From Gaiella occulta (GTDB taxonomy: Bacteria; Actinomycetota; Thermoleophilia; Gaiellales; Gaiellaceae): a stretch of 64,000 bases of DNA. Within the stretch, counting starts at the first letter, position 1, and each line of letters begins with the position of its first letter. The notes beneath the pieces were generated by a model. The model saw nothing but the letters and a program-made list of their open reading frames with translations. It was not told the origin of the DNA and made no database searches. This document shows, one piece after another, positions 43,681 through 47,124 of this stretch. A program made the translations under genes and the position numbers. The DNA lies in assembly GCF_003351045.1 (NCBI RefSeq), contig NZ_QQZY01000001.1, forward strand, positions 124,001 to 188,000. Direction: 5' to 3'.

Positions 43681-43835
43681 GCCGTCTCCAGACGTTCGAC
43701 CCGAAAGGGGCGCGCGAAGCGCGCCCCTTCAGGATCGTGTCGCCCGGCTGCGCCGCAGCCGGGCGACATGCAGCAAGCATCGAGTGCGGCGTCTCGCAAC
43801 AAGGCTTTCCGGTGGAATGGTGCGAGACGCCGCAC
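43681..43835. repeat. 155-bp three-hairpin repeat, copy 1
   Basis: This copy aligns without gaps to 50962-51116, with 8 mismatches over 155 bp. It contains three hairpins in a row: an 11-bp stem with GAA loop (43705-43715/43719-43729), a 15-bp stem with nearly no loop (43738-43752/43754-43768), and a 15-bp stem with a 22-nt loop (43784-43798/43821-43835). It fills the gap between the molybdenum hydroxylase and amidohydrolase genes, its last base being part of the latter's stop codon. No transposase or target-site duplication was recognised. Confidence 0.92.
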
Positions 43836-44980
43836 TAGGCGCGCGTCGTCGCGGCGAGCGTGCCCGCGACGTGGACGAGCCACTTCGCATGGTCGCCGGC
43901 GACGCGCCGCTCCGGGCCGTCGGCGATCTCGTCCGAGCGGTGCCACAGCTCCGCCGCGGTGACGAGCGCATCGCGGATCATCCCGGCCTCCTCGATGTGG
44001 GCGTGCTCGGCGAGCGCGGCGTTGACGGCGAGGCCGAGGCCGCCCGCGGCGTCCGGCTGGCGCATCCACAGCAGCGGCGTCGCCATCGAGACGTACTGGG
44101 TGATACGCGCGAACGTGAGAGGCTGCACGAGCGCGGTGAGCCCGCGCGGCGGCGTCGGCGGCGGCACCGGGTCGCCGTGTGCGATCGCGGCGGCGGTCCC
44201 CCCGAGCATCCACCGGATCTGGGTCTCGTCGAGCCCCGAGAGCCGGGCCGTGCGCAGTGCCAAGAGCAGCGCGTTCGGGAGCCGGCCGTACGGGTAGTCG
44301 GTCGCGAACAGCACCTGCTCGGGCGAGACCTGGCGGAAGAGGTCGAGCAGGTCGATCGCGCTCCACACCGACGTGTCGAAGAACACCCCGGGCACGCCGC
44401 CGAAGCGGGCGGCGAGTCCGGCCATGTCGGCGATGCCGGCGTGGGCGATGATCAGCTGCACGCCGCCGTAGCGCTCGACGAGGGCCGCGAGGTGGTCGGC
44501 GATCGGCGGCAGCCCGCGGCCGCCGTGGATGAGGATCGGCACGCGGCGCTCGAGCGCGAGGGCGAACACCGGCGCGAGGCGCTCGTCGCCGACCGAGAAC
44601 CGCTGTGCGCGCGGGTGGAGCTTGATCCCGCGTGCCCCGAGATCGAGGCAGCGCACCGCTTCCTCCAGCGGATGGTCATCGAGGTCGAGGCGCGCGAACG
44701 GGACGATGCGCGGGTCGGCGGCGGCATGCGCGAGCGTGCGGTCGTTCGCGGCCCGGAAGGCAGGCGCCCGATCGGGCTCGTCGAGGCAGAAGGAGAAGGC
44801 GCCGCCGAAGCCGTTCGCGTCGAGCATCGCGGTCAACTCGTCGAGCCGCCCGGCCATGCCGTCGATGTCGTCGCCGAGGTGCGTGTGGGCGTCCCAGAGC
44901 ACGCAGTCGCAGGGCATGTCCGCGCGCACCATCGCGTCGCAGGCTGCGAGGATCTCCTGCGCGCGCTCGAGTGCGTCCAC
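43835..44980 (-). CDS. Amidohydrolase-family (TIM-barrel metal hydrolase) protein
   Basis: The 381-residue amidohydrolase_2-type protein has the N-terminal metal motif WDAHTHLGD (HxH), a Lys/His segment GIKLHPRAQ, LIIAHAGI for the barrel His and FATDYPYGRLP carrying the final Asp. Relatives include decarboxylases and hydrolases of cyclic or aromatic acids. Start is GTG 44980, 6 nt after a -10-like TAGACT (44992-44987) that overlaps the stop codon of the upstream selenoprotein gene. The last 80 residues extend beyond the barrel and are of unknown role. Confidence 0.82.
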   Translation of the reverse strand: MDALERAQEILAACDAMVRADMPCDCVLWDAHTHLGDDIDGMAGRLDELTAMLDANGFGGAFSFCLDEPDRAPAFRAANDRTLAHAAADPRIVPFARLDLDDHPLEEAVRCLDLGARGIKLHPRAQRFSVGDERLAPVFALALERRVPILIHGGRGLPPIADHLAALVERYGGVQLIIAHAGIADMAGLAARFGGVPGVFFDTSVWSAIDLLDLFRQVSPEQVLFATDYPYGRLPNALLLALRTARLSGLDETQIRWMLGGTAAAIAHGDPVPPPTPPRGLTALVQPLTFARITQYVSMATPLLWMRQPDAAGGLGLAVNAALAEHAHIEEAGMIRDALVTAAELWHRSDEIADGPERRVAGDHAKWLVHVAGTLAATTRA

Positions 44981-44989
44981 GTTGCGAGT

Positions 44990-45640
44990 CTACGCAGGCG
45001 GAGCGGCCGCCGCGGACGCGAGCAGCCGCTCCACGAACGCCGCCTCCGGCATCGAGCCGACCCACGCGCGGCGGTCGTCGACGACGATCGTCGGCACCGA
45101 GACGACGCCGTGCCGGTCGGCGTCGACGGCGAACTCCGTCGCCTCCACGGCGGCGGCCGTGACGCGCGGCGAGGCGAGTGCGCAGCGGTAGGCCAGCAGC
45201 ACGGCCGGCGGACAGTGCGGTCACGTGGGGGTGACGTAGACCTCGAGCGCCACGTCGTGCTCGAGCGTGGCGAGCGCCGCGCGCGACGCCTGCGAGAGCG
45301 TGCTCTCCGTCTTCCCGGCCTCGACGATCGCTCCGATCAGCGTCGAGAGCTCGTATCCCCACGGCAGGCCGTGGTAGACGAGGCCGTCGCCGACGGTGAT
45401 CTTCGGCCAGCGTCCGCGCTCGGTCGTCTCCGTCACCCGCAGCGACACGCGGTCGGAGAGCGCCGCGATCTCCTCGAGCAGCGCGCGCGCCTCCGCGCCG
45501 AAGTCGATCTCGCGACCGCCGGCGATCACGGTCACCGGCGTCTCCTCGGGACCGAGCTCGAGCGTCACCGCGACATCCTGCTCGACGCCGTCGAGGACAT
45601 CGCGTACGGCGGCAGCATCGCGCTCCCCGAGCAGCCTCAT
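44990..45640 (-). CDS. Protein disulfide oxidoreductase with in-frame TGA at active-site Cys (probable selenoprotein, U140-P-H-C)
   Basis: Reading through one TGA (45223-45221) gives a 216-residue protein with the two thioredoxin-fold domains of PDO/glutaredoxin-like proteins. The N-terminal domain (1-118) has KITVGDGLVYHGLPWGYELS but no CxxC. The C-terminal domain has VYVTPT-U140-PHCPPAV, where family members have C-P-Y/H-C, then VVSVPTIVVDD (cis-Pro) and WVGSMPE. Coding continues for 76 residues to a normal TAG. A 39-nt hairpin follows the TGA. It is translated from ATG 45640, overlapping the M32 peptidase stop. A nonsense mutation or sequence error is the alternative, but its placement exactly on the redox Cys argues for selenocysteine. 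Confidence 0.72.
45181..45220 (-). promoter_or_regulatory. Candidate bacterial SECIS element
   Basis: In the 40 nt after the TGA, GGCC/GGCC forms an apical stem 18 nt downstream with loop GTGCTGCT (G first). CGCA (+2 to +5) pairs with TGCG (+37 to +40). Size, distance and a G at the loop start agree with the loose bSECIS consensus. The middle of the helix is imperfect, so pairing support is moderate. Confidence 0.4.
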
Positions 45641-47124
45641 CGCAGCGAGTCGATCTTCTCGCGCAGGTAGCGCAGGTAGGGCTCGGGGTCGATCGTGCCG
45701 GAGCCCGTGACCCGCTCGAGCGCCTCCTTCGGCGTCAGCTTGCGCCCGAGCGCGTAGAGGTTGTCGCGCAGCCAGGCGGACAGCCCGTGCAGCTCGCCCG
45801 CCGCCATCCGCGCGTCGAGGTCGGGGAGCGCCTCGCGCACCTTCGCCCAGATCTGCAGCGAGATCACGTTGCCGAGCGCGTAGGTGGGGAAGTAGCCGAT
45901 GGCCCCTCCCGACCAGTGCACGTCCTGCAGCACGCCGTCCGCGTCGGACGGCACCTCGACGCCGAGGAACTCCCGCATGCGCGCGTTCCACACCTCGGGC
46001 AGATCCTCGAGCGCGACGGTGCCGTCGATCAGATCCTGCTCGAGCTCGAAGCGCAGGATGACGTGCAGCGAGTAGGTCGTCTCGTCCGCGTCGACGCGGA
46101 TCAGGCCCGGCTCGGCACGGTTGATCGCGCGCACGAACGCGTCGAGATCGACGCCGCCGAGTTGCTCGGGGAACATCTCCTGCAGCGGCCCGTACCAGTG
46201 CGTCCAGAACGGTCGGCTGCGGCCGACGAGGTTCTCCCACGTGCGGCTCTGCGACTCGTTCAGCGCCAGCGACGGCGCGCCGCCGAGCGGCGTGCGCATG
46301 AGCGAGTCGGCGATCCCGTGCGCGTAGAGACCGTGGCCGGCCTCGTGCATCGTCGACCAGATCGACTCGAGGTCGTGCGGCCGGTAGCGGGTCGTGAGAC
46401 GGACGTCGCGATTCGAGAAGGAGGTGCAGAACGGGTGCGCGGTCGGGTCGAGGCGCCACGCGCCCTCCTCGAAGCCCATCGTCGCCAGCACGCGCCCGGC
46501 GAACGCACGCTGTCGCTCGGGGTCGAAGGAGCCGTGCAGGAACGAGGCGTCGACCTGCGGCGCCGAGCGCACGAGCTCGGTGAGCGCCGGCCGCAGGGTC
46601 GCGAACACGGCGCGCACCTCCGCCGTCGTCATGCCCGGCTCGTAGTCGTCGAGCAGCGGCGTATACGCCGAGTCGGCGGGCTCGAAGCACTCGACGTAGC
46701 GCCGCTTCAGCTCGACGTTCGTGCGCAGGTAGGGGAGGAACGAGCCGAAGTCGCTCTCCCTGCGGGCCTCGACCCACGCCTGGTGGCCGCGCGCGGCCGC
46801 ACGTGTCATCTCGACGCGCAGGTCGGTCGGCACGCGGCACGCCTTCTCCCAGTCGCGGCGCGTGACGCGGATCAGGCTGGCGTCGTCGCAGTCGTAGGGC
46901 AGCGACTCCTCGAGCGGGCGCAGCCGCTCGAGCAGCCGGCCGACCTCCGGGTCCGTGAAGCGCTCGTGGGCGATGCGGCCGAGCGTCGCCAGCACCTCGG
47001 CGCGGGCCTCGGTGCCGCGCGGCGGCATCGTCACGCGCTGATCCCAGACGAGCACGCCGGCCGCGCGCGCGACGTCGGCCACTTCCGCGAGACGCTCCCT
47101 GAGGGTCGTGAGTGGATCGCTCAT
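45637..47124 (-). CDS. M32-family carboxypeptidase (carboxypeptidase Taq-like)
   Basis: The 495-residue metallocarboxypeptidase has the M32 zinc motif MHEAGHGLYAHG (HExxH) and downstream Glu in ALNESQSRTWENLVGRS. The family segments HPFCTSFSNRDVRLTTRY and RVDADETTYSLHVILRFELE are also present. Length matches the family (about 495-510). It removes C-terminal residues from peptides in the cytosol. The -10-like TAGCCT (47136-47131) is 6 nt before ATG. It is followed, with ATGA overlap, by the probable selenoprotein disulfide oxidoreductase, so they share a transcript. Confidence 0.94.
   Translation of the reverse strand: MSDPLTTLRERLAEVADVARAAGVLVWDQRVTMPPRGTEARAEVLATLGRIAHERFTDPEVGRLLERLRPLEESLPYDCDDASLIRVTRRDWEKACRVPTDLRVEMTRAAARGHQAWVEARRESDFGSFLPYLRTNVELKRRYVECFEPADSAYTPLLDDYEPGMTTAEVRAVFATLRPALTELVRSAPQVDASFLHGSFDPERQRAFAGRVLATMGFEEGAWRLDPTAHPFCTSFSNRDVRLTTRYRPHDLESIWSTMHEAGHGLYAHGIADSLMRTPLGGAPSLALNESQSRTWENLVGRSRPFWTHWYGPLQEMFPEQLGGVDLDAFVRAINRAEPGLIRVDADETTYSLHVILRFELEQDLIDGTVALEDLPEVWNARMREFLGVEVPSDADGVLQDVHWSGGAIGYFPTYALGNVISLQIWAKVREALPDLDARMAAGELHGLSAWLRDNLYALGRKLTPKEALERVTGSGTIDPEPYLRYLREKIDSLR

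Follow-up and report, generated by a model that had tools for sequence, protein, structure and literature searches.

The UGA at codon 140 of a 216-residue reading frame in Gaiella occulta is very probably read as selenocysteine (Sec), with a probability that we put at about 0.96. The gene would then encode a selenoprotein of the TIGR02187 family of protein disulfide oxidoreductases (PDOs), produced with the help of SelB and Sec-tRNA(UCA) and guided by a hairpin downstream of the UGA. This reading is drawn from genome sequences and is supported by the open frame, conservation of the TGA, its equivalence to Cys in homologues, the presence of Sec machinery, constraint at the RNA level and a confident predicted fold. 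The window analyzed is a contiguous stretch of 64,000 nucleotides, and the features relevant to the argument are as follows.

44990..45640, (-) strand: candidate PDO selenoprotein gene, ATG at 45640, stop TAG at 44992-44990, 216 residues
45221..45223, (-) strand: in-frame TGA, putative Sec140; codon 140, at the U of the U-P-H-C redox site
45212..45214, (-) strand: resolving Cys C143 of U-P-H-C, invariant in a 40-sequence alignment
45192..45209, (-) strand: putative bacterial SECIS (bSECIS) core, stem GCCGGC/GCUGGC, apical loop CGUGCU
45637..47124, (-) strand: upstream gene, carboxypeptidase Taq, peptidase M32 (Pfam PF02074, E = 1.5e-164)
43835..44980, (-) strand: downstream gene, amidohydrolase-like (Pfam PF04909, E = 1e-22)

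The reading frame, its fold and its conservation

Inspection of the reverse-strand frame from 45640 to 44990 reveals a single internal TGA (45223-45221) in the context VTPT-U-PHCPPAV, the frame being otherwise open. A preliminary description of this DNA had placed the TGA at the first redox Cys of a PDO with the rest of the domain in frame. This agrees with its position at codon 140 of the 216-residue read-through product, in which the second Cys (C143), the expected cis-Pro (P183) and the final helix (residues 199-212) are all retained. The catalytic site would escape standard gene callers, which would annotate here either a fragment of 139 residues or, downstream, a short ORF of 70 codons.

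The ATG of the PDO gene overlaps the TGA stop of the M32 gene (ATGA), and the two genes may thus be translationally coupled, an arrangement in which the M32 gene adjoins the PDO gene only in the window's own genus. Because the M32 gene ends with TGA, this codon is a normal stop in the genome, and it is only its context that sets the internal TGA apart. The PF04909 gene begins 9 nt after the PDO stop, and 12 of the 17 other distinct loci of the clade have a PF04909 gene downstream, no more than ∼160 nt from the PDO stop.

The best NCBIfam model for the protein was TIGR02187 (PDO_seleno_TRX), which aligned residues 7-207 with model positions 3-207 of 209 (148.7 bits, E = 1.4e-43). Neither this score nor those of the other clade members (152-155 bits) reached the curated equivalog cut-off of 185 bits; the clade is thus a divergent branch of the superfamily, and functional equivalence is not claimed. 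Pfam identified a Thioredoxin_3 domain at residues 132-207 (E = 3.4e-14), and the AhpF models of NCBIfam matched the protein with their N-terminal region only. The AlphaFold2 model of the read-through product, built with 40 homologues, had a mean pLDDT of 95 and a pTM of 0.91; in this model, helix 143-156 begins at the U140/C143 motif. Sequence-profile comparison with the PDB gave the PDOs of Aquifex, Pyrococcus and Aeropyrum as best matches, followed by AhpF N-terminal domains, and Foldseek returned the same structures (TM-scores on the query of 0.82-0.85 for PDOs and 0.73-0.81 for AhpF).

An N-terminal CxxC is absent from every TGA member of the clade and is present in many Cys members and in L122, a TGA locus from another family. 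The clade therefore does not have the CxxC in both thioredoxin folds that characterizes the two-site archaeal-type PDOs. Similarly, the protein ends at residue 216 and does not carry the C-terminal FAD/NADH-dependent reductase found in the same chain in AhpF. The gene product is, on sequence and predicted structure, a two-thioredoxin-fold PDO of the TIGR02187 (AhpF N-terminal-domain-like) family that has lost the N-terminal CxxC.

Among 61 relatives searched, the gene was present in 7 genomes, including the window's own, each with the TGA. A class-wide profile search (399 genomes) detected it in 19 genomes of the window's family, 18 with the TGA and one (G228) with only an N-terminal fragment of the PDO gene. 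The same search detected 8 genomes in two other families, of which seven had Cys and one had TGA (G093, locus L122). Across all sequences collected, TGA fills the Sec column in L122 and the 18 distinct loci of the clade, 73 homologues from many phyla have TGC or TGT there, and no other codon occurs; the Cys counts are not frequencies, since part of this set came from search patterns written with Cys, a bias to which the class-wide profile search is less subject. The preliminary description had asked whether this column holds Cys or TGA in homologues and had considered a chance stop at this residue unlikely, a judgment with which the recurrence of this TGA, at an unchanged codon position, across 18 distinct loci of the clade is in keeping. 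A scan of the contig collection with a single protein gave no match, and an alignment-based scan did. Some rows of alignments A1 and A2 end in a C that stands for the terminal TGA of the gene and not for a residue. In locus L017 (G005, an assembly that is 86% complete), an insertion of ∼25 codons or a frame disturbance was observed in the PDO N-terminal domain.

The downstream hairpin and the selenocysteine pathway

With the T of the TGA counted as nucleotide 1, the hairpin core occupies nucleotides 15-32, of which 15-20 pair with 27-32 to give a 6-bp stem and a 6-nt loop with G at its second position. The distance from the TGA to the loop is 17 nt, and the minimum free energy (MFE) is -10.1 kcal/mol. 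These values lie within all of the published limits for bSECIS elements, namely an apical loop of 3-9 nt, a stem of 4-16 bp, G within the first two positions of the loop, a spacing of 16-37 nt from the UGA and an MFE of -7.5 kcal/mol or below (PMC13188914); the preliminary description had recommended a bSECIS predictor for this region. The longer SECIS-like hairpin that it had drawn from 2 nt after the TGA does fold in the window, but the lower stem is not conserved in relatives and only the 18-nt apical part is kept. In 18 clade sequences the core is invariant save for one loop position (C/U), and the invariance of the stem columns means that there is no covariation in them.

The energy of the hairpin did not differ significantly from that of dinucleotide shuffles (z of -0.37 to +1.2), and Rfam at the gathering threshold gave no match within the window. 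Among synonymous reshuffles of this GC-rich stretch, ∼21% could form a stem of 6 bp or more in an allowed position and 9% were as stable. Given this weak thermodynamic signal, the SECIS argument is based on codon conservation. The clade TGA genes share roughly 46-69% protein identity, yet codons +4 to +10 (PPAVLLA) were modal at 122 of 126 positions across 18 genes, whereas 5000 simulations averaged 81.2 (sd 4.7) and none was as high, the maximum being 98; the simulation ignores relatedness, but protein identity is at the level just given and neighbouring codons vary freely. The Leu codons of the hairpin are CTG (TTG in three genes), whereas the rest of the clade genes favour CTC (238 to 84). 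This synonymous freezing is strong evidence for a signal at the RNA level, which is most likely a bacterial SECIS. L122, with a different codon sequence, has an 8-bp hairpin with the loop GGC at the same place.

A Cys homologue from Chloroflexales (L058, at ∼4425) contains the same PPAVLLAYRLAL peptide, encoded by codons that are nearly those of the SECIS core. Its codon +8 is CTC instead of CTG or TTG, which would break the loop-closing pair, and L058 is possibly a former Sec gene.

The selA, selB and selC genes that the genome was predicted to carry were all found, together with selD. A tRNA-Sec was detected (64.6 bits), to which ARAGORN assigned the anticodon TCA, and SelA and SelD were identified with E-values of 8.2e-131 and 1.9e-106, respectively. 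SelB comprises 600 residues with GTPase, SelB beta-barrel and winged-helix domains and is encoded beside SelA. The formate dehydrogenase (FDH) alpha gene of the same genome (L130:1735; G000:C3:72533-74401) also contains an in-frame TGA, at U-H-A-P, the usual FDH Sec site, with a hairpin just downstream that has GGUC in its loop region; the Sec pathway would accordingly have at least two clients. The N-terminal 52 positions of the FDH alpha profile match separately at G000:C3:77100.

Of the clade genomes with the TGA gene, five reach a completeness of at least 90%, and all five have SelA. SelA was also found in ten of the other clade genomes, and both SelA and the SelB domain were missing from four (G003, G005, G170 and G323). 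The assemblies of these four are fragmented and 71-88% complete, and the adjacency of SelA and SelB in the window's genome means that both could be lost through one assembly gap. SelA also occurs in many relatives that do not have the PDO gene, indicating that this gene is a client that the pathway can do without.

Alternative readings, proposed mechanism and origin

The TGA might be an ordinary stop, either because the gene is decayed or because translation yields no more than the first 139 residues, and the M32 gene and several clade PDO genes do indeed end with TGA. Protein identity to the window within the clade, however, is 51-75% after the TGA and 43-63% before it, and each of the 16 TGA relatives compared shows the higher value after the TGA. 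The gene is therefore not decaying, and the decay in close relatives that was proposed as a check on the Sec reading was not seen. Moreover, substitutions downstream of the hairpin numbered 1896, 1624 and 3021 at codon positions 1, 2 and 3, respectively, a clear third-position excess; the pairing of Cys with TGA is exact across phyla; and a single confident fold is predicted for the read-through product. An ordinary stop is thus very unlikely. A sequencing or assembly error that turned TGC or TGT into TGA could be imagined in a draft of 34 contigs, but the chance of this is vanishingly small when the same TGA recurs in 18 distinct loci from independent assemblies. Conservation of the TGA, its equivalence to Cys, the identity after it and the third-position excess were together taken to exclude both decay and sequencing error.

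A selenium-free decoding, in which a near-cognate or suppressor tRNA places a different amino acid such as Cys or Trp at the UGA, would also fit a frame that is open with any residue at codon 140. That UGA is also a real stop in the same genes implies that the codon is not reassigned, and the genome holds a complete Sec pathway. TGA occurs only where homologues have the redox Cys; in the other TGA gene, that for FDH alpha, it falls at the classical Sec site; and the hairpin codons are frozen as a SECIS would require. Such decoding is consequently extremely unlikely.

If the UGA is read as Sec, SelB with Sec-tRNA(UCA), guided by the downstream hairpin, would insert Sec at codon 140 with no termination. 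The N-terminal fold of the product would be without a CxxC, and the C-terminal fold would bear U140-P-H-C143 at the start of a helix. By analogy with thioredoxin-fold chemistry, Sec140 would attack a substrate disulfide or a peroxide-oxidised thiol, Cys143 would resolve the mixed selenenylsulfide, and an external donor would reduce the selenenylsulfide.

Phylogenetic analysis placed the clade in one fully supported group (100/100) on a branch of 1.36 changes per column. L122 grouped with the Cys proteins of its own family, so that parsimony needs two changes, and one Sec clade was compatible with the AU test (p = 0.139). L122, from a different family of the same class, has the TGA at the same codon, keeps the N-terminal CxxC and lies above the TIGR02187 cut-off, the scores of L122 and the Cys relatives L120, L058 and L042 being 203-269 bits. 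Its CxxC, score and grouping with Cys proteins suggest an independent Cys/Sec exchange. A tentative and rather doubtful extension would be that the clade constitutes its own single-site, Sec-fixed PDO subfamily, with the N-terminal redox site lost and a dedicated role distinct from that of other TIGR02187 proteins, perhaps with the PF04909 amidohydrolase, and with Sec that may be independent of that in L122.

The nearest named records are the metagenome-assembled genomes Gaiella sp. FR_16 (L023) and Thermoleophilia bacteria; the PDO sequence of L023 equals that of L013, from a genome labelled as belonging to the window's genus. These records point to Gaiellaceae as the probable family of the window. 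The PDO on a contig labelled Acidobacteriota (L027, JAGWRZ010000060.1) nests inside the Gaiellaceae TGA clade, which would reflect either a mis-binned contig or horizontal transfer.

Relation to known selenoproteins and oxidoreductases

Two reviews (PMC13188914, 2026; PMC9312934, 2022) list a 'Homolog of AhpF N-terminal domain (Grx-like domain protein)' under TIGR02187, with a UxxC motif and ABB15282.1 from Carboxydothermus, citing Kryukov and Gladyshev 2004, and a 2006 survey names family members in Carboxydothermus and Symbiobacterium (PMC1794560). The name of TIGR02187 and these listings indicate that this kind of selenoprotein is already known, Sec having been predicted in the family in 2004. 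The remark in the preliminary description that this PDO subtype is not known to include a well-studied selenoprotein must be corrected in that the family is catalogued. A literature search, which mostly did not extend to subscription papers, found nothing relevant on TIGR02187-type PDOs in Thermoleophilia or Gaiellales. What is new here, judged from the genomes compared, is a lineage in which predicted Sec is fixed and the N-terminal CxxC has been lost, frequently with a PF04909 gene beside the PDO gene. This would add a largely uncultured clade of Actinomycetota to the known users of the selenium PDO, and the occurrence of Sec and Cys versions within one class provides a comparative set for studying Cys/Sec exchange.

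The window's protein resembles TIGR02187 (PDO_seleno_TRX) in belonging to the same profile family, in its two-domain length and in having Sec first in UxxC; it differs in that its clade scores 149-155 of the 185 bits, is without the N-terminal CxxC of many Cys members and sits on a long branch. With the archaeal and Aquifex PDOs (1a8l, 1j08, 2ayt and 2hls) it shares the double thioredoxin fold, at the TM-scores given above, and the C-terminal context VTPTCPYCP, but it has Sec for the first Cys and no CxxC in the N-terminal fold. The N-terminal domain of AhpF (1zyn and 4o5q) likewise consists of two thioredoxin folds and has one active site, in the second fold, as in the window's protein. By contrast with AhpF, the protein described here is free-standing, with no fused FAD/NADH reductase, and is predicted to carry Sec instead of Cys.
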